From positions 1-42,320 of the forward strand of contig JALUDX010000090.1 of assembly GCA_027053355.1 (NCBI GenBank): a DNA stretch of 42,320 bases, written 5' to 3'. This document shows, piece by piece, positions 15,055-33,942 of the stretch. How positions within the stretch are numbered: the stretch's first letter is position 1; every line of letters begins with the position of its first letter. The translations under genes were made by a program, and so were the position numbers. This DNA is from Anaerolineales bacterium (GTDB lineage: Bacteria; Chloroflexota; Anaerolineae; Anaerolineales; DRMV01). Under the pieces are notes generated by a model, which was given only the letters and a program-made list of their open reading frames with translations, was not told the DNA's origin and did not search any database.

Positions 15055-16086
15055 TTAGCGCTGTGTGCCACCACTGGCCTTGCTTTGGGCCTTAGCAACA
15101 TTAGCGACCAGTGCCGCAGTGGCCGCCCGTTTGGTGACATCCGCGACCTGGGTATAGATCTGGGTTGTCGCGATCTCAGAGTGCCCAAGGAGCTCCTGGA
15201 TAGTGCGCAGGTCCTGGCCATCATTAAGTAGGGCCGTTGCGAAACTGTGACGGAATAGGTGCGGGGTGACATTACGGGTGATCCCGGCTGCGGATGCCGC
15301 TTTTCTGATTGATTTCCTGATATCTGTATATTTCCTGCCCGTCCTGGGCGATGGGAACATGAGCCCCTCTTTCCTGGCGCCGCAAATCTCCGCCAACCTG
15401 TCTGCCAGTGCCGGAGATGATATCGGGGCGATTCGCTGTTTTCCACCCTTGCCATGAATGAGCAGGGCCTGGGCCGCCGGGCTGTAATCATCGACACGCA
15501 GCCCAAATACTTCGTCACGGCGCAGTCCACAATATGTCATCAGCTCCACCATGGTTTTGATATCGCCTGTCAGATTATTGATGATCGCCGCCAGTTCCTC
15601 CACAGTTAGTGGTCTTGGCAATGGCGGTGCTGTCTCCTTTTTCGAGAACCGTTTTGGTCTCGGTACTTCCGACCCGGTGGTTTCGTTGACATAGGTAATA
15701 TAGGCAGATAGTCCGGACAGCTCGATATTGATCGTCCTTTTTTTCACGCCATCTGCCAGTCGCTTGGCCTTGTACGATTCGATCAGAGCCGGGGATAGGT
15801 GTCTCATCCTGTATGCGCCGAAAAAATCGGTGAGGTGGCGCATGGAGTTTTCCATCACCTCAGCCCCACGTTTGCTGGCCCGGTTTCGGTAGGCGATCAT
15901 GAACTCAGGCAGTAGATCGAGAAACCCTGGGTCGCTGCGATCCGTCATGCCGCGCAGATCACGCTCAAAAATTAGGGCCTCTTCCATGGACCCATGGAAA
16001 GGAATGTATTCAGCCTTGCCTTTGCGGCCATGGCTGATCTTTATCATCTGCCAGCCAGGGCGTGATGGGTGTTTGTAGACTGACAT
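15055..16086 (-). CDS. int: Tyrosine-family phage integrase
   Basis: A 343-residue site-specific recombinase. I use the ATG at 16086 (MSVYKHPSRPGW, a typical integrase N-terminus); an upstream TTG at 16104 overlaps the preceding stop. The N-terminal region and the SAM-like core-binding domain (about 55-145) precede the catalytic domain. Catalytic residues are all visible: Arg189 (CGLRRDEV), Lys216 (GKGGKQR), His276 and Arg279 (HLFRHSF), His302 (LGHSE) and Tyr311 (IYTQV). It should insert the phage into, and with help excise it from, tRNA-Pro, whose 3' half lies right after its stop. Minus-strand orientation places it in the lysogeny module. No separate excisionase is recognised. Confidence 0.95.
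   Translation of the reverse strand: MSVYKHPSRPGWQMIKISHGRKGKAEYIPFHGSMEEALIFERDLRGMTDRSDPGFLDLLPEFMIAYRNRASKRGAEVMENSMRHLTDFFGAYRMRHLSPALIESYKAKRLADGVKKRTINIELSGLSAYITYVNETTGSEVPRPKRFSKKETAPPLPRPLTVEELAAIINNLTGDIKTMVELMTYCGLRRDEVFGLRVDDYSPAAQALLIHGKGGKQRIAPISSPALADRLAEICGARKEGLMFPSPRTGRKYTDIRKSIRKAASAAGITRNVTPHLFRHSFATALLNDGQDLRTIQELLGHSEIATTQIYTQVADVTKRAATAALVANVAKAQSKASGGTQR
15092..15108 (-). other. Candidate integrase arm-type sites, right pair
   Basis: TTAGCAAC (15092-15099) and TTAGCGAC (15101-15108), reverse complements of GTTGCTAA and GTCGCTAA. They mirror the pair at 14934-14951 around the attP core and lie within the 3' end of the integrase gene. Confidence 0.45.
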
Positions 16087-16104
16087 CGCCTGCGGCCTGG
16101 TCAA

Positions 16105-26482: not shown

Positions 26483-27754
26483 ATGAATTCAGAATTGCAT
26501 GCGACAATCGATATGATGCGGGCCATAAAAAAGGCAAGCCGCATCAGCGTAAACAGGCATTTCGAGGGATTTTTTGCCGACAGGATATTGCAGGCCGTGT
26601 CTGCTCCGACATTGCTCGATATGATCGAGGCCCTTGCCAAGGGTCTTGATGTCAGTATCGAGTATATTGGCGGCCGGACGACGGCGGCCTTTATGACTGC
26701 GGCGCATGGTACGAAGGCTGATTCCGTTTTGGCTTGGATTCGCGAGCATCCGCGAATCGCGGCCATGGTTGCCGGTCTACGTGATGATGATGATTATGGA
26801 GAAGCGATTGGGGCGATAGAGCTTCCCGATATCGCGCCGGCAGGTGGTGGCATGGTCGATATTCCACCCAGGGAGTATGACATCCCGATAAGGGTCAGGC
26901 TTCTTTCTCCCCTGGCCCATGGAGCAGACGGTAAGGCAGGCAATGCGACCGTATTCAGGCGCCGCCAGGTCCTGACAGGTGATGGCGGCCAGATCAATCT
27001 GCCATATTATGGAGGCAATGCGCTGCGTGGCCAGCTCCGCGATCTGCTGGCTGATCATTTTCTTTCCGGACTTGGTGTCACGCCGCGGCGCGATAAGCCG
27101 CCGGTGGCGATCTGGTTTTTCCATTGCCTCTATGCTGGCGGCGTCCTTGAGGAGCGGTCAAAGGCAATGGCCGCTGTTGATACAGAGCTGGGGAAGAGCG
27201 GCAGTCTGCGGACAGATGGGCTGCGCAGGATACGTGATATGCTGCCAGTGTTGTCCTTGCTTGGGACCGCGATTGGTAACAGGATTCTGCCTGGTCGCAT
27301 ATGTGTCGGTGACCTGCGGCCAATATGCCGGGAGTGGGGGTCCGGAGATGTTCCGGTTGCAAGGCTCATGCAGTGGGAATACCTGACCAGGCATGACAAC
27401 TATGAGGGCAAGGGTGTTGATGCCGATCACGCTGGGATGATTGCGACGACAGAGTGCATACGCGAGGGAGCTGAGCTTGTCGGTGGCATTGACCTCGACA
27501 CCCATATCAGCGAGATCGAAAGATCTGCCCTGGGCATGGGTCTTCGCCTGCTCTCCGAGCGCGGTAAGCTTGGGGCCGAGAACAGGCGTGGGCTCGGCAT
27601 GGCAGAAATCAATTCTGATAATGCGCCTGATCCACAGCCGTATATCACGTGGCTGCAAGAGAATCGCACCCAGGTCATTGAATATCTCGAGAAGATAGGA
27701 GCAATTAACACAGATGCATCCTCTGTTGCTGATATACTCTGCGGTCCCTTCTGA
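26483..27754 (+). CDS. csf2: Csf2 (Cas7) backbone subunit of a type IV-B-like effector, with a fused N-terminal region
   Basis: 423 residues, preceded by AAGGAGA. Residues about 130-400 are a Cas7/RAMP-type fold: YDIPIRVRLLSPLAHGADGK, the line QINLPYYGGNALRGQLRDLL (residues 170-189) and the glycine-rich loop GKLGAENRRGLGMA (361-374), all as in Csf2 of type IV systems, where it polymerises along guide RNA. Residues 1-125 are an extra helical region not present in the plain Csf2 I know. It could be a fused small subunit (Cas11), since no separate cas11 gene exists here. An internal part of this gene (27183-27488) is copied at 31196. Overlaps csf1 by 41 bases. Confidence 0.85.
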   Translation: MNSELHATIDMMRAIKKASRISVNRHFEGFFADRILQAVSAPTLLDMIEALAKGLDVSIEYIGGRTTAAFMTAAHGTKADSVLAWIREHPRIAAMVAGLRDDDDYGEAIGAIELPDIAPAGGGMVDIPPREYDIPIRVRLLSPLAHGADGKAGNATVFRRRQVLTGDGGQINLPYYGGNALRGQLRDLLADHFLSGLGVTPRRDKPPVAIWFFHCLYAGGVLEERSKAMAAVDTELGKSGSLRTDGLRRIRDMLPVLSLLGTAIGNRILPGRICVGDLRPICREWGSGDVPVARLMQWEYLTRHDNYEGKGVDADHAGMIATTECIREGAELVGGIDLDTHISEIERSALGMGLRLLSERGKLGAENRRGLGMAEINSDNAPDPQPYITWLQENRTQVIEYLEKIGAINTDASSVADILCGPF

Positions 27755-28490
27755 TGATCCTGACTACCCTGCGATCCCGGACAAGACAGAACCTGGGATA
27801 TGCGCCGTAACGGGTGAGGAGTGCGAGACCGTCCCCAGGGCAAAGCTGCTGGGGAAATCTTTCACAGATGGAGCCCTTTTGGCCGCGCCAGGGAGCGATA
27901 GGGTAGGTGTTGGGGCATACGTGGCCATGAAATACAAGTGGGAGCGTATGTCGAGCTGGATATGCGATGGCAGGACATTTACCCGCCTGGACAGAATTGG
28001 GGTACGTGACATGCTGTTCACCGAGCCTCCTGATAGACCGTGGTGCGCGTATGCGACTACGAGCTACAAGAAGCATGGTGGCCTGCGTACTGTGGTCAAT
28101 GACCGTGATCGGCGTGTGTGGCTTTTTGAGACCAGGCTGGTAGACTGCACTGATATGGAGCGTGTCGACAGATGGTGGAACAGGCTCAATGCGGCGTTCA
28201 GATCAGGAATCGGGCGCGTTATCCTAGAAACGATGATTTGTCCTCCCCATATCATGCGCCGTGTCGGAATCAATTTCTGGCTGGAATTTGAGGCATGGGC
28301 CTTACCTCGGCACCGTTCCGCGCTGTACTCGTTCCTCTGTTACCTGCTGCCGAGCCAGCAGGAGCTGAGGGCAGAGAAGAGAAAGAAAAATGAAGAGCAA
28401 GATCAAGGACCAGAGGCTGCTGTTCACCATCCACGCGAAAACAGCGATGTACAAAGCAAGATGCGCCAGCTTGACCTCTTTTCTCTGTGA
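27714..28490 (+). CDS. csf1: Csf1 (Cas8-like) large subunit of a type IV-B-like effector
   Basis: 258 residues. The N-terminus MHPLLLIYSAVPS followed by GICAVTGEEC (Cys30, Cys37) matches the start and the zinc-finger of Csf1, the type IV signature protein that caps the complex. Further cysteines (about 83 and 110) may complete the metal site. The middle has aromatic and basic residues (FTRLDRIGVRDMLFTEPP, GGLRTVVNDRDRRVWLFET). The C-terminal 40 residues are charged and lie over the start of the cysH-like gene (overlap 101 bases). The order here is csf2-csf1, not the usual csf1-cas11-csf2. Confidence comes from motif plus neighbours. Confidence 0.75.
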   Translation: MHPLLLIYSAVPSDDPDYPAIPDKTEPGICAVTGEECETVPRAKLLGKSFTDGALLAAPGSDRVGVGAYVAMKYKWERMSSWICDGRTFTRLDRIGVRDMLFTEPPDRPWCAYATTSYKKHGGLRTVVNDRDRRVWLFETRLVDCTDMERVDRWWNRLNAAFRSGIGRVILETMICPPHIMRRVGINFWLEFEAWALPRHRSALYSFLCYLLPSQQELRAEKRKKNEEQDQGPEAAVHHPRENSDVQSKMRQLDLFSL

Positions 28491-29130
28491 TCTTCCTGTT
28501 GATCGCTGCTATGTAAGCTTTTCCGCCGGCAAGGATTCATCTGTCCTGGCCCACGCAGCAAGCATTGCCATGCCAGGCGTCCCTATCCTCATGGTGGACC
28601 CTGGCTGCCCGACCCACTGGAGCGAGGACGAGCGGAAGGCATGGAAAGAATATGCGGCCGAGGCAGGATGGAACATCATCATGTTTCCATGGGATAAGTG
28701 GTCAGACGATGATGTCCGCGCGGCAAGGACAGCGAGGCAGCATGCCTTTGCTGCGCATCGGTCGATGTTTTCAGACCTGGAACAATGGGCGTCCGCACAT
28801 GGCCGCGACCATTGTCTGCAGGGGTTGCGGGCCGAGGAGTCGAGGGGAAGAAGGGTCAGCCTGATAACCCATGGCGATATATATCGGAAGCGCGACGGGT
28901 CAATGGTAAGGGTTGCACCATTGGCCAGGTGGACATGGATGGACATCTGGGCATATATCATTGACCATGATTTGCCATGGCTGCGGATCTATGATTGCCT
29001 CGGGCCGGAGGCGCGGAACGGGTGGATAGGGCGCAATGGTCTTGAGCATGGCCGCATGGTCTATCTGCGGAAATATTATCCAGAGGCATACAGGTTTGCC
29101 CGGGACATTCTGGAGGTTCCATACGCATGA
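28390..29130 (+). CDS. cysH: CysH-like PP-loop protein of type IV-B CRISPR-Cas
   Basis: 246 residues of the PAPS reductase/adenylylation (PP-loop ATPase) fold. The PP-loop SAGKDS is at residues 45-50, and the GLRAEESRGRR line around 143-153 is the second typical motif of the CysH-like family. The catalytic Cys-containing tail of true PAPS reductases is absent. A CysH-like gene is a hallmark of type IV-B loci, where its function is still unknown; a nucleotide- or RNA-modifying step has been suggested by the fold. It overlaps csf1 by 101 bases and csf3 by four. Confidence 0.85.
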   Translation: MKSKIKDQRLLFTIHAKTAMYKARCASLTSFLCDLPVDRCYVSFSAGKDSSVLAHAASIAMPGVPILMVDPGCPTHWSEDERKAWKEYAAEAGWNIIMFPWDKWSDDDVRAARTARQHAFAAHRSMFSDLEQWASAHGRDHCLQGLRAEESRGRRVSLITHGDIYRKRDGSMVRVAPLARWTWMDIWAYIIDHDLPWLRIYDCLGPEARNGWIGRNGLEHGRMVYLRKYYPEAYRFARDILEVPYA

Positions 29131-29771
29131 ATTTCTCAATAACATTTCATCTTGACGGGTCCGGAGTTTGTTTTGATCCACGAGAGCCAATCCATCTCGA
29201 CGCATTGCTGGCCTGGGCTTTGGCCCCGCGCCAGGGTGTCCACCAGCATCTGGGGCGTGATGATGTCCCGCAGCACGTGGCCCTGCCGCTATTGCGGTCT
29301 AGGGTCAAGGGAAAGCAGGTATGGCATGCATCGGCATTGTTCCCAGACGGGTGGACTGGTGAGGATCTCCAGTATTGGCGGAAACGATTTCGCCAGTCAC
29401 GGGCAGACCTGACAAACGGTAGCCCGAATCTGACCAATGGCACGTATCGTGATTGGAATATGCCTGTCCCATTGCTATTGGTGCGGCGGTTGACTGCCTA
29501 TGCATCAGGGGGCAGGAAGCAGGTGCGCAAGGTGTTGCGTGAGTTGAAATATATTGGCAAAAAACGTGCGCATGGACATGGCAAGGTCGTTGGTATGACG
29601 ACGGAAGAAGTTCCTGAAGACTGGTCGCTGGTAAAAGACGGGATCGCCATGCGATGGTTACCAGACGACAATGGCACGCGTCTGGTCAGGACTGTGCCGC
29701 CATACTGGAACAGGCACTGCCGGGTGCGGTGTTGCGAGGTTGGAGACAGATATTCAGGTCTTGGAAAATGA
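29127..29771 (+). CDS. csf3: Csf3 (Cas5-like) subunit of a type IV-B-like effector
   Basis: 214 residues, ATG overlapping the cysH-like stop. It starts with a beta strand line (FSITFHLDGSGVCFDPREPI) and a helix (HLDALLAWALAPR). It carries the RAMP glycine-rich loop GKKRAHGHGKVVG near residue 150. These are the features of Csf3, the Cas5-like subunit that caps the 5' end of the guide. Type IV Csf3 is about 200-230 residues, so this is full length. Identification uses the glycine-rich loop and the operon partners, csf2, csf1 and cysH. A tiny gene starts inside its stop. Confidence 0.75.
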   Translation: MNFSITFHLDGSGVCFDPREPIHLDALLAWALAPRQGVHQHLGRDDVPQHVALPLLRSRVKGKQVWHASALFPDGWTGEDLQYWRKRFRQSRADLTNGSPNLTNGTYRDWNMPVPLLLVRRLTAYASGGRKQVRKVLRELKYIGKKRAHGHGKVVGMTTEEVPEDWSLVKDGIAMRWLPDDNGTRLVRTVPPYWNRHCRVRCCEVGDRYSGLGK

Positions 29772-29947
29772 TACAGGAACGGATTTTCAGGCTGCCGCCA
29801 GTTGGCAGGATCGGGCGGAGACGTGTCGATCGACTGTTCATGGAGCAGATAGAGGACAGGGCGGCCAGGATACGAAATGCGTGCCGCGCGCCCTGGAAAG
29901 ATGCCGGCGGCGAGAGTGGTGACCGGCGGCAGATGCGGATGTTTTGA
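29768..29947 (+). CDS. Short basic ORF after csf3
   Basis: 59 residues starting at an ATGA overlap with csf3 and ending at the first direct repeat. It is rich in Arg (VGRIGRRRVDRLFMEQIEDR, ACRAPWKDAGG) and probably one or two helices. It may be a small nucleic-acid-binding protein, or the surviving N-terminus of a gene cut by the inserted segment that begins at 29945. Confidence 0.4.
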   Translation: MIQERIFRLPPVGRIGRRRVDRLFMEQIEDRAARIRNACRAPWKDAGGESGDRRQMRMF

Positions 29948-29986
29948 TGAATTAGAAAAACAGTATTGTGTCACCGGAATTCTGTG
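29945..29986 (+). repeat. 42-bp direct repeat, left copy (R1)
   Basis: Contains AACAGTATTGTGTCACCGG and GAATTCTGTG and is identical to 31513-31554. Part-copies follow at 29987-30004 and 30005-30035. The core resembles the AGTATAC-type motifs with a CCGGAATTC end that I recall near REP-associated transposase (RAYT) genes. No transposase is in the window. Confidence 0.85.
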
Positions 29987-30035
29987 TGTCACCGGAATTC
30001 TGTGAGAAAAACAGTATTGTGTCACCGGAATTCTG
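29987..30035 (+). repeat. Partial repeat copies (R1' and R2)
   Basis: TGTCACCGGAATTCTGTG repeats at 29987-30004, and a nearly full unit (AAAAACAGTATTGTGTCACC then GGAATTCTG) at 30005-30035. Together with R1 this makes a tight three-step array before the methyltransferase. Confidence 0.8.
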
Positions 30036-30070
30036 AACATCAATGCGCTATCAGACGCATTGCGTGGAGA

Positions 30071-30829
30071 ATGATGAATGAGCTGGCACTTTTCGCGGGC
30101 GCTGGTGGAGGAATACTTGGCGGGATGCTCATCGGGTGGAGAACTGTCTGCGCGGTTGAAATCGATCCATATGCAGTCTCTGTACTCATCCAGCGCCAGA
30201 ACGATGGAATTCTGCCGACGTTCCCGGTCTGGGATGACGTGCGGACGTTTGACGGGACGCCGTGGCGTGGAGTTGTTGACGTGGTTTCTGGAGGTTTCCC
30301 GTGCCAGGACATCTCCATCGCCGGGAAAGGGGCTGGAATCGATGGTGAAAAGAGCGGGCTGTGGGCTGAAATGCGTCGAATTATCGGTGAGGTTCTGCCC
30401 AAGTTTGTCTTCGTGGAAAACTCACCAATGCTTGTTCACAGAGGTCTTGCCAGAGTCCTCGGTGACCTTGCCTCGATGGGGTACGATGCAAAATGGTGTT
30501 GTATCGCAGGCTATCATACCGGCTGGGAAACGAATGGTGAAAGGCTGTGGCTGGTTGCGTCGCCCACTATGGACGGATCACAAGTTTTATGTCCTGACGC
30601 GCCAACAGATGCTCACAAGGCGCAGACAGGGAAAGACGCCAATGAACTGGATGCAGCAGGCAATAGAATTAAGCGACTTGAAGAAAGCATGGGCGAACGT
30701 GCGATTTGCGGAGCACCTGTTGAGGTGGCCAATAAACTGGACCGATTTAAGGTCATTGGAAATGGGCAGGATCCAGCGATGGTTAAAACTGCATGGCAAT
30801 GTTTGACAGGAGTTCCTCATGCCACGTAA
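30071..30829 (+). CDS. DNA cytosine-5 methyltransferase, short form
   Basis: 252 residues from the ATG at 30071 (an ATG at 30074 is equally possible; longer forms run into repeat DNA). The m5C-methyltransferase motifs are present in order: motif I FAGAGGG (8-14), motif IV GGFPCQD with the catalytic Cys78, motif VI ENS (116-118), motif VIII-like GERLWLVA (157-163) and the C-terminal FKVIGNGQDPAMVK (motif X-like). The target-recognition region between motifs VIII and X is short and Asp/Ala-rich. It probably methylates phage DNA against restriction. Its origin with the inserted segment suggests recent acquisition. An unrelated frame on the same strand is a shadow. Confidence 0.85.
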   Translation: MMNELALFAGAGGGILGGMLIGWRTVCAVEIDPYAVSVLIQRQNDGILPTFPVWDDVRTFDGTPWRGVVDVVSGGFPCQDISIAGKGAGIDGEKSGLWAEMRRIIGEVLPKFVFVENSPMLVHRGLARVLGDLASMGYDAKWCCIAGYHTGWETNGERLWLVASPTMDGSQVLCPDAPTDAHKAQTGKDANELDAAGNRIKRLEESMGERAICGAPVEVANKLDRFKVIGNGQDPAMVKTAWQCLTGVPHAT

Positions 30830-31160
30830 CATGAGTTTCGCAATGACTACAGATCAGATCAAGGATGGCACAAAGACTGTTACGCGCCGTCTTGGATGGA
30901 GTTTCCTGAAACCATTCACTGACATCTGGGCGGTCGAGAAAGCAATGGGACTGAAGAAGGGCGAGAAGATAAAAAGGCTACGTTTGCTTCATGTCGTTTC
31001 CGTCCGCCGTGAGCCATTGAATGCGATCACAAAAGACGACTGCATCAAGGAAGGGTTTCCGGAGTTTGAACCTGAAGATTTTGTGAAGATGTTCTGTGAT
31101 CATTATGGATGTACTCCTGATGTACTGGTAAACAGGATTGAATTTATTTACCTGTCGTGA
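30819..31160 (+). CDS. ASCH-domain protein
   Basis: 113 residues, ATG inside the methyltransferase end. The conserved line is IKDGTKTVTRRLGWSFLKPF near the start, followed by KKGEKIKRLRLLHVVSVRRE and a C-terminal DDCIKEGFPEFEPEDF, which is the ASCH (PUA-like) pattern. ASCH domains bind modified or damaged nucleic acid bases, or RNA. Pairing with a methyltransferase is common in phages and suggests handling of modified DNA. It is followed by the third repeat. Confidence 0.7.
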   Translation: MPRNMSFAMTTDQIKDGTKTVTRRLGWSFLKPFTDIWAVEKAMGLKKGEKIKRLRLLHVVSVRREPLNAITKDDCIKEGFPEFEPEDFVKMFCDHYGCTPDVLVNRIEFIYLS

Positions 31161-31167
31161 AAACATG

Positions 31168-31196
31168 TAAAAACAGTATTGTGTCACCCGGAATTC
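31168..31196 (+). repeat. Direct repeat unit R3
   Basis: TAAAAACAGTATTGTGTCAC followed by CCGGAATTC, with one extra C relative to the other units. The csf2 copy begins directly at its end. Confidence 0.8.
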
Positions 31197-31501
31197 AGAG
31201 CTGGGGAAGAGCGGCAGTCTGCGGACAGATGGGCTGCGCAGGATACGTGATATGCTGCCAGTGTTGTCCTTGCTTGGGACCGCGATTGGTAACAGGATTC
31301 TGCCTGGTCGCATATGTGTCGGTGACCTGCGGCCAATATGCCGGGAGTGGGGGTCCGGAGATGTTCCGGTTGCAAGGCTCATGCAGTGGGAATACCTGAC
31401 CAGGCATGACAACTATGAGGGCAAGGGTGTCGATGCCGATCACGCTGGGATGATTGCGACGACAGAGTGCATACGCGAGGGAGCTGAGCTTGTCGGTGGC
31501 A
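31196..31501 (+). pseudogene. 306-bp internal copy of csf2
   Basis: Aligned without gaps to 27183-27488 (offset 4013) with one base different (31431 C, 27418 T). It corresponds to csf2 residues about 235-336, so it is neither a full gene nor its start. Bounded at both ends by the repeat motif, in the same orientation as csf2. Near-identity means the duplication is recent, or that sequence exchange keeps it uniform. It could drive loss or rearrangement of the csf locus by recombination (about 4 kb apart, deleting csf1, cysH, csf3 and the methyltransferase). Confidence 0.9.
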
Positions 31502-31512
31502 CCGGAATTCTG

Positions 31513-31554
31513 TGATGAATTAGAAAAACAGTATTGTGTCACCGGAATTCTGTG
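31513..31554 (+). repeat. 42-bp direct repeat, right copy (R4)
   Basis: Identical to 29945-29986. A part-copy ACCGGAATTCTGTG (31501-31514) sits just before it and overlaps its first two bases. Marks the right edge of the inserted segment. Confidence 0.85.
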
Positions 31555-31555
31555 C

Positions 31556-31633
31556 ACCATTGACGGCCTCACTATCGCCGGGGAACCGAAGGGCGACTGG
31601 GTTGTTACATTAAAGAGGGTGAATGCACCCTAA
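31556..31633 (+). pseudogene. C-terminal remnant of an unknown coding sequence
   Basis: In one frame the sequence reads TIDGLTIAGEPKGDWVVTLK and ends NAP-stop at 31631. The residues look like real coding sequence rather than chance, but no start is present since the repeat lies before it. Probably the end of a gene whose front was removed. Confidence 0.3.
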
Positions 31634-31716
31634 CGACAAAACTCAGCGGCTGGCCAAAGCGGATGGCCCGAAGCGCAAGAGTTAATCCCGTCCGCTGAAG
31701 TGTATTGTTATGTGTT
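31628..31716 (+). mobile_element. Integron attC-like site (tentative)
   Basis: It opens CCCTAACGAC and ends ATTGTTATGTG. The outer arms TAACGACAAAACTCAGCGG and the reverse complement of CCGCTGAAGTGTATTGTTA agree at 14 of 19 positions. The inner CAGCGG/CCGCTG pair and the length of about 90 bp fit an attC of a gene cassette. The next ORF starts in the final GTTATG, as cassette genes often do. There is no integron integrase. The GTTATGT end deviates from GTTRRRY at one base. Confidence 0.35.
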
Positions 31717-31949
31717 TAGAATTAAACACAACGTCAAATTATGAACCAATGCCTGCATGGAATTGCCCCCATAGTTGGATGAACATCGGTGCGCCAATTA
31801 AATACTGGACATCTGCTGGAACTAATGAATATGCGCCTGATGATGCGCCAGTAATGCAAAAACGTAAGTGCTTAATATGTGGCGGCGTTGAATGGAAATT
31901 TTATAAACATAACAGAGTAATAAGTGGAAAGTTTCAACTTATTGTATAG
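31710..31949 (+). CDS. Small hypothetical protein (cassette-like ORF)
   Basis: 79 residues, start at the attC-like end. Four cysteines (two as CLICGG, one in NCPHSW, one near the N-terminus) could bind zinc. Codons are clearly AT-richer than those of surrounding phage genes, which suggests transfer. No family is recognised. The stop overlaps a terminator stem. Confidence 0.5.
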   Translation: MCLELNTTSNYEPMPAWNCPHSWMNIGAPIKYWTSAGTNEYAPDDAPVMQKRKCLICGGVEWKFYKHNRVISGKFQLIV

Positions 31950-32017
31950 CACTGGCTGGATATAAAGCTGGAACAGCCCCTTCCTTATAAGTTGGTTGCC
32001 AGCCGGTGCTTTTTTTT
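31948..32017 (+). terminator. Intrinsic terminator after the cassette-like ORF
   Basis: Outer stem AGCACTGGCTGG (31948-31959) with CCAGCCGGTGCT (31999-32010), one G-U pair, followed by seven T. The loop of about 39 nt holds another small stem (TATAAAG near CTTATA). Confidence 0.6.
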
Positions 32018-32091
32018 GTCGACCGGAGGTCATGGACGTCATGTGCCGGCGGTGAACAGGTAACCACTCCCGGGGTAGCAAATTACCAAAA

Positions 32092-32133
32092 CCCCCACGT
32101 TGCTAGCAGTAGCAACGTGGGGGTTTTTTTTTT
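32092..32133 (+). terminator. Strong intrinsic terminator before the gpW-like gene
   Basis: A 14-bp perfect stem, 32092-32105 with 32110-32123 (CCCCCACGTTGCTA / TAGCAACGTGGGGG), tetraloop GCAG, followed by ten T. It separates the accessory region from the morphogenesis operon, so the genes from 32159 need their own promoter or antitermination. Confidence 0.9.
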
Positions 32134-32158
32134 GGTCGTGTTGCTGTCCCATGGAGGC

Positions 32159-32383
32159 ATGGCAACGATAAGCGAGATTCAGGAGCGGTTGGCGCTCTAC
32201 CGGCAGGCCGAGCGGTCCATCCTTGAGGGGGGGCAGGAGTATCGTACCGGGGCGGTGCGGTTCACCCGTGCCGACCTGGGGCGGATACAGGATTACATCC
32301 GCGAGCTGGAGCAGCAGCTTGCCATTGCCCAGTCATCCGGACGGCTCACCCATAACGTGACAGTGTTCGGAGGACGGCGCTGA
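32159..32383 (+). CDS. gpW-like head-tail joining protein
   Basis: 74 residues from the ATG at 32159. The pattern EIQERLALYRQAERSILEGG then AVRFTRADLGRIQDYIRELE matches the lambda gpW fold (strand-helix with basic helix). It plugs the capsid vertex after packaging. In lambda the order is Nu1-A-W-B; the same order appears here as terminase, (inserted csf/accessory region), W, portal. It overlaps the portal start. Confidence 0.8.
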   Translation: MATISEIQERLALYRQAERSILEGGQEYRTGAVRFTRADLGRIQDYIRELEQQLAIAQSSGRLTHNVTVFGGRR

Positions 32384-33942
32384 TGTCCCATCCCTCCAGC
32401 ATCGGCGCCGGAATCCGGCATAAGGTCTATGACGCAGCCACGGCGCTGGTGGCCGGGACCATCTCTGTCTTTTCCCCGGGCCGGGCAGCGATGTACCGTC
32501 ACCACCGGCGGATGTACCGCACTTATGCGGCCGGCGAGCTCACCGGTCCGAACCAGAATTTCCGGCCGCGGCCCAGGTCGGCTGACGCCGATATCCGCCG
32601 CGGCCTGAAGAATATCATTGGCCGCTGCCGCGACCAGGCCCAGAACAACCCCTACATCTCGGGATCCATCAAGCGGATCGTCAACAACGCGGTCCGCCGC
32701 GGCATCAGACCGCAGTTCCAGTTCCGCGACGCCGGCGACCGGCTCGACAGCCGGGCGAACCGCGCATGGGAACGGCTCTTCATGCGCTGGTCCCGCTATG
32801 CCGACCTGACCGGGCACGACTCCTACTGGGCACTGCAGCGGCTGGTCCTGTCCCACATGTGGTTTGACGGCGAGGTCCTGATCCACCGCGCCTGGGACGA
32901 CTCGATCCCAGGCGTTCCGCCCCTGCGCCTGGAGCTGCTGGAGCGCGATCACCTGGCCACCATGGTCGATGGCCGCCTGGAGAGCGGCAACATTGCCAGG
33001 GGCGGCATCGAGTACGACGAGGCGACCGGCAGGCCGGTGGCCTACCATCTCTATCCCTACCATCCCGGCGACACCATGATCACCATGGCCATGGCTCCGG
33101 TCAGGATTCCGGCCGCGGACATCATCCATGTCTACGACCGGCAGCGGATCTCCCAGACCATCGGCGTGCCGTGGATCGTGGCCATTGTCATGGAGGCCTA
33201 CGACCTGGAGGACTACCGGGCCTACGAGCGCATCGGCGCCAAGCTGGCCGCGGCCTTTGGCCTGTTCGTCAAGACCAATTACCCGGAGCTTGCCGGCCCG
33301 GGCATCGGCATCCGTCCAGGTGAGGATGTCTCCTTCGAGGATTTGCCGGACTATATCGAGCCGGGCCGCATCCAGGCCCTGCCGCCGGGCACCGACGTGA
33401 CAGTGGCCTCGCACAACCGGCCCGGCAACCAGTACGAGCCCTATGTCAAGGAGTCGCGGCGGGCCCAGTCTGTTGGCGCCGGCATTTCCTATGAGTCCTA
33501 TGCCAACGACTACACCGACGCCTCCTACTCGTCGACGCGCTCCGGCGCCCTGGAGGAGCGGCTGTCCTATGGCGGCATGCAGTTCTTCCTCGACGAGAAG
33601 CTCAACGACCGCGTCTGCGCCTGGTTCGTTGAGGCGGCATGGCTGGCAGGGCTCAACCCGTCGCCCATGCCGGGATACCGCTTCGACCCCAACCCCTACC
33701 TGGAGGCGGTGACGCACCAGGACCCGGGCTGGTCATGGGTCGATCCGCTCAAGGATGGCCGGGCCTCGCAGTTGCGGGTGCAGGAGGTCCTCTCCACCAG
33801 GCGGCGCGAGGCAGCGGCCCAGGGCTATGACTGGGACGAGCTCCTGGACGAGGCCATGGACGAGGAACGCCGGTTGACGCCGTTGCTGCGGTTGCGCCGG
33901 CAGAACCAGGACCTGGAGGATAGCAATGCCACGACGGCGTGA
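32383..33942 (+). CDS. Portal protein (lambda gpB family)
   Basis: 519 residues starting at an ATG that shares its A with the W-like stop. It has the lambda-type portal arrangement: N-terminal helical clip (TYAAGELTGPNQNFRPRPRS), then YISGSIKRIVNNAVRRGIRP, the wing with LSHMWFDGEVLIHRAW, and a C-terminal RQNQDLEDSNA-like tail. It forms the dodecameric ring for DNA entry. The C-terminus overlaps the protease gene. Confidence 0.9.
   Translation: MSHPSSIGAGIRHKVYDAATALVAGTISVFSPGRAAMYRHHRRMYRTYAAGELTGPNQNFRPRPRSADADIRRGLKNIIGRCRDQAQNNPYISGSIKRIVNNAVRRGIRPQFQFRDAGDRLDSRANRAWERLFMRWSRYADLTGHDSYWALQRLVLSHMWFDGEVLIHRAWDDSIPGVPPLRLELLERDHLATMVDGRLESGNIARGGIEYDEATGRPVAYHLYPYHPGDTMITMAMAPVRIPAADIIHVYDRQRISQTIGVPWIVAIVMEAYDLEDYRAYERIGAKLAAAFGLFVKTNYPELAGPGIGIRPGEDVSFEDLPDYIEPGRIQALPPGTDVTVASHNRPGNQYEPYVKESRRAQSVGAGISYESYANDYTDASYSSTRSGALEERLSYGGMQFFLDEKLNDRVCAWFVEAAWLAGLNPSPMPGYRFDPNPYLEAVTHQDPGWSWVDPLKDGRASQLRVQEVLSTRRREAAAQGYDWDELLDEAMDEERRLTPLLRLRRQNQDLEDSNATTA

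Follow-up and report, generated by a model that had tools for sequence, protein, structure and literature searches.

A near-identical partial copy of csf2 lies between short repeats in the cargo patch of a putative temperate phage

We analyzed a window of 42,320 bases, which is the entire length of contig number 90 of a 215-contig MAG. The contig carries genes for an integrase (15055-16104, minus strand), a repressor, the small and large terminase subunits, a gpW-like connector, a portal, and head and tail proteins, and the integrase and repressor genes point to a temperate phage. An earlier note on this DNA had spoken of lysogens, which agrees with the presence of these two genes, but every gene identified is of phage type and the contig shows no recognisable host flank, so lysogeny is suggested rather than seen. 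Between terL and the gpW gene lie, in this order, a 367-aa gene, csf2, csf1, a cysH-like gene, csf3, a 59-aa ORF, three copies of a short repeat, dcm, and an ASCH-like gene, followed by one repeat copy, a fragment of csf2, two further repeat copies, a 450-bp AT-rich stretch, and then gpW. The features of this interval described below are on the plus strand.

The csf operon begins with csf2 (26483-27754; type IV Cas7, 423 aa; PADLOC typeIV_Cas7, E = 1e-43, residues 132-406), whose product has an N-terminal extension of ~125 aa, and continues with csf1 (27714-28490; type IV Cas8-like; PADLOC Csf1, E = 2e-13), the cysH-like gene (28390-29130; Pfam PAPS_reduct, E = 9e-15), and csf3 (29127-29771; type IV Cas5; PADLOC Csf3, E = 2e-38). 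The operon has the csf1, csf2, csf3, and cysH-like genes of type IV-B, and the contig contains no array-like repeats, as in type IV-B. The NCBIfam scores of the csf genes fall under the curated cutoffs, so the operon represents a divergent branch. Described type IV-B systems consist of csf1, cas11, csf2, csf3, and cysH without an array, and none of them includes a csf2 fragment; the phage operon differs from them in its order (csf2-csf1-cysH-csf3) and in having no separate cas11, although the probably helical N-terminal extension of Csf2 may be Cas11.

The AT-rich cargo patch between csf3 and the gpW gene holds dcm, the ASCH-like gene, the repeats, and the csf2 fragment. The first of these is a gene for a C5-cytosine DNA methyltransferase (dcm-like, 30077-30829; Pfam DNA_methylase, E = 3e-26), with nucleotide identities of 71-76% to genes in Acinetobacter, Pseudomonas, and Salmonella phages and in a Leptospira plasmid; it appears to be a widely travelled cargo gene, here upstream of the ASCH-like gene (30819-31160; 113 aa; Pfam ASCH, E = 0.002, just under the curated cutoff; 12 viral relatives). 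The right border of the patch is the gpW-like head-tail connector gene (32006-32383), next to which stands the portal gene (32383-33942). The AT-rich stretch before gpW contains a 79-aa cysteine-containing ORF (MCLELNTTSNYEP..., 31709-31948) with no clear relative.

The csf2 fragment (31196-31501) is a copy of codons 234-336 of csf2 (27183-27488), a segment inside the Cas7-like domain. BLAST and direct alignment give 305 identical bases out of 306 without a gap (E = 4e-173), on the same strand and at an offset of 4,013; the single mismatch (T27418/C31431) is at the third position of codon 312 and is synonymous (GTT/GTC, both Val). The alignment thus bears out what the earlier note had read from the letters, a 306-bp copy of the middle of csf2, one base different, internal to the gene, in the same direction, and 4 kb away. 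No other long repeat exists in the 42,320-base contig, so the duplication is not due to chance. The parent ORF is uninterrupted, whereas the copy, covering codons 234-336 of 423, has neither the start nor the end of csf2 and so only incomplete coding capacity; a near-identical internal piece of this kind is a partial gene duplication, or pseudogene fragment. The copy had also been said to have no start, which is right for csf2's own start codon, but an internal ATG in frame opens an 87-aa ORF (31252-31515). The copy is documented in one MAG contig.

Both ends of the copy abut repeat copies (31169-31196 and 31500-31514), in agreement with the earlier description of a piece bounded by repeat motifs. 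The repeat core, CACCGGAATTC, is nearly palindromic and is found nowhere in the contig outside 29972-31550, where it occurs five times exactly and once with an extra C; the core starts are 29972, 29990, 30023, 31185 (extra C), 31500, and 31540, and the full repeat reads AAAAACAGTATTGTGT-CACCGGAATTCTGTG. Three copies, two full and one an 18-bp half, lie upstream of dcm (29945-30041). On its left the csf2 fragment is bordered by the copy with the extra C (31168-31196) and follows AAAAACAGTATTGTGTCACCCGGAATTC (31169-31196); on its right it is bordered by a half repeat, CACCGGAATTCTGTG (31500-31514), after which comes a full repeat (31513-31554). This last repeat is identical over 42 bp to 29945-29986 and has the same direction, 1,568 bp apart, and the outer pair encloses dcm, the ASCH-like gene, and the csf2 fragment; this cargo could thus also be lost by recombination. 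The fragment sits between a core ending GGAATTC on the left and a core starting CACCGG on the right, with junctions TTC/AGAGCTG and GGTGG/CACCGG (slashes mark the joins) that share one base (C) and two bases (CA), respectively.

Direct repeats near cas genes resemble a CRISPR array, but an array has constant repeats with unique spacers of ~25-45 bp, whereas here the core starts are 18, 33, 1162, 315, and 40 bp apart, repeat sequence fills the short intervals, and the repeats lie end to end, or separated by a few bases, or on either side of 306 bp and 1.1 kb. The repeat has no copy elsewhere in the MAG or, with up to three mismatches allowed, in 400 genomes of the order, and searches of known phages and plasmids returned nothing beyond chance-level matches; the absence from the MAG and the order gives no sign that the repeat is the end of a known mobile element. 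Ends of an IS21-type transposon were considered and rejected: the 18-base core gave five matches in genome and viral collections, all single, neighbourless, and at about the chance level, and BLAST matches in plasmids and phages were weak (E of 3 or more). The frame DELEKQYCVTGIL...VNAP (31514-31630), considered as a coding remnant, yielded no significant relative, and no Rfam family matched the repeat as an RNA element. Shuffled sequences fold less well than the repeat pair at 31495-31560 (z = -3.2), which is explained by the nearly palindromic core, and promoter and terminator scans were near chance.

Two further phages (L004 and L014), whose Csf2 proteins are 52-53% identical to that of the window, carry neither the repeat nor the csf2 fragment. 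L004 has the order terL, a 170-aa gene, csf2-csf1-cysH-csf3, a gpW-like gene (so named for its place and length rather than by family match), and portal, and 30 bp separate the gpW-like gene from csf3; the csf genes of L014 lie between Mu-type-portal-like and MuF-like genes, both named from sequence alone. A third phage (L035), whose portal shows 67% identity, lacks csf genes and has different cargo in the terL-gpW interval, with Bro-N and AbiU2-like genes among it. This interval is a cargo spot, and among the phages found the patch of repeats, dcm, and fragment is specific to that of the window. No such fragment was seen at the other csf loci compared, a csf2 scan of the genome collection gave no relative, and an exact-match search of viral contigs with a pattern from the fragment was empty. 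Relatives of the csf genes were likewise absent from 60 related genomes (csf2 query) and from 300 genomes of the order (csf1 query).

We infer that the fragment is probably an ordinary copying accident of recent date, in which templated insertion or illegitimate recombination placed part of csf2 inside a repeat; this inference takes in the mechanism, the direction of copying (from csf2 to fragment), and the lack of function. The dcm cargo would already have been flanked by the repeat. While the phage DNA was being replicated or repaired, an end in the repeats downstream of dcm and the ASCH-like gene probably changed template to csf2, ~4 kb upstream, was extended by 306 bases, and came back to a repeat copy, unless an equivalent illegitimate recombination joined the pieces. 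Either route would leave a piece of csf2 that lacks head and tail and is enclosed by two copies of the repeat core; such a piece would persist because it is young and in a tolerant spacer, and it most likely has no function. The identity of 305/306 indicates a young copy. Consistent with a copying accident, each junction lies at the repeat core and shares 1-2 bp, the source gene is intact but neither of its ends occurs in the copy, the repeat appears at no other locus searched, and the relatives have no fragment. A short nearby copy, an intact source, 1-2 bp junctions, and insertion at a repeat are also features of templated insertion, or microhomology-mediated partial gene duplication, as known elsewhere, but here the mechanism is read from one sequence, and 1-2 bp of microhomology cannot diagnose it: such a length is about what chance would give, so a template switch looks the same as simple end joining. 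The copied frame has stayed open over the 87-aa ORF, which counts against an accident, and the repeats on both sides of the fragment leave room for a site-specific mechanism.

Such a mechanism would make the repeats recombination or transposition sites, that is, cassette borders between which a dedicated enzyme captured the dcm-ASCH pair and the csf2 fragment. The repeats do flank both the pair and the fragment on either side, the outermost being identical over 42 bp, and the close nucleotide relatives of dcm in unrelated phages and plasmids indicate that the cargo is mobile. However, these relatives align only inside the genes and not across the repeats, the same ends were found at no other locus in the MAG, in the 400 genomes of the order, or, above chance level, in the phage and plasmid searches, and no transposase or recombinase was recognised among the proteins beside the repeats, the phage integrase being 14 kb off. 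We consider capture by such an enzyme unlikely. That the repeats belong to an unrecognised phage cassette system, which takes up DNA between cores in the csf3-gpW interval and so acquired part of the phage's own csf2, is very improbable.

The earlier note had also raised an assembly chimera, and the second csf2 copy could in principle reflect a misjoined path through the repeat in the metagenome: the contig belongs to a MAG in 215 pieces, a single sequence supports the copy, and repeats together with a 306-bp duplication are a typical trouble spot for short-read assemblers. An artefact would, however, need two distinct junctions, each at a different repeat copy, and the two copies of the csf2 segment differ by one base. 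The repeat units (31-42 bp) are presumably below the usual assembly k-mers, so reads probably contained the junctions. A chimera is thus conceivable but disfavoured, and we regard it as rather improbable. That the fragment is functional, for example as an expressed 87-aa piece of Cas7 or as an RNA used by the Csf complex, is very unlikely: its frame is open with an ATG, and the type IV-B complex can load heterogeneous RNA (PMC7937560), but it encodes a truncated part of the Cas7 domain, is in sense orientation and so not antisense to csf2, and does not recur in the relatives found, and the repeats have neither unique spacers of CRISPR size nor an Rfam match.

Taken as a partial duplication left by a copying accident, the fragment is in itself a small record of breakage and rejoining in phage cargo patches. 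Provided that the duplication is real, homologous recombination across the 306-bp direct repeat could excise the entire csf operon, and this offers a simple population test of selection on the operon. Recombination between the copies had been predicted to delete csf1, cysH, csf3, and the methyltransferase block, and the computed geometry of this event is correct: a deletion of 4,013 bp would remove these genes and also the ASCH-like gene, and would leave csf2 as 335 residues plus TGIL. The earlier note had also suggested that the copy might serve gene conversion, which, like the deletion, would be a hypothetical event.

A better lead to IV-B-like function than the duplication is the position of the csf operon within the head genes of three unlike phages. 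IV-B-like operons lie inside the head and packaging genes of the window phage (26483-29771), L004 (3286-7136), and L014 (5305-8633); in all three the gene ends overlap and a separate cas11 is absent, and Csf2 has an N-terminal extension of ~125 aa (26483-26860; L004 3286-3693; L014 5305-5679). The extension is predicted to be helical in a low-confidence model of Csf2 (mean pLDDT 42.5). Against a PADLOC Cas11 model, the N-terminus gave E = 8e-4 in L004 and a weak 0.04 in L014, with no match for the window protein, and a PDB search with a profile of the three Csf2 sequences reached a Cas11c at E = 0.34; a profile comparison was weak as well. Csf2 of this branch may thus be a Cas11-Cas7 fusion, which we offer as a lead rather than a result. 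In type IV-B, cas11 has been described as a separate gene (PMC8175902, PMC7937560). In other IV-B-like operons, for example on a Mycolicibacterium plasmid and in Skermania phage SPI1, a separate small gene matching Cas11 models precedes csf2. The operon of Skermania phage SPI1, deposited as a complete genome (L045 3807-6739; KR011061 Orf40-43), comprises csf1, cas11, csf2, and csf3, all of them annotated as hypothetical.
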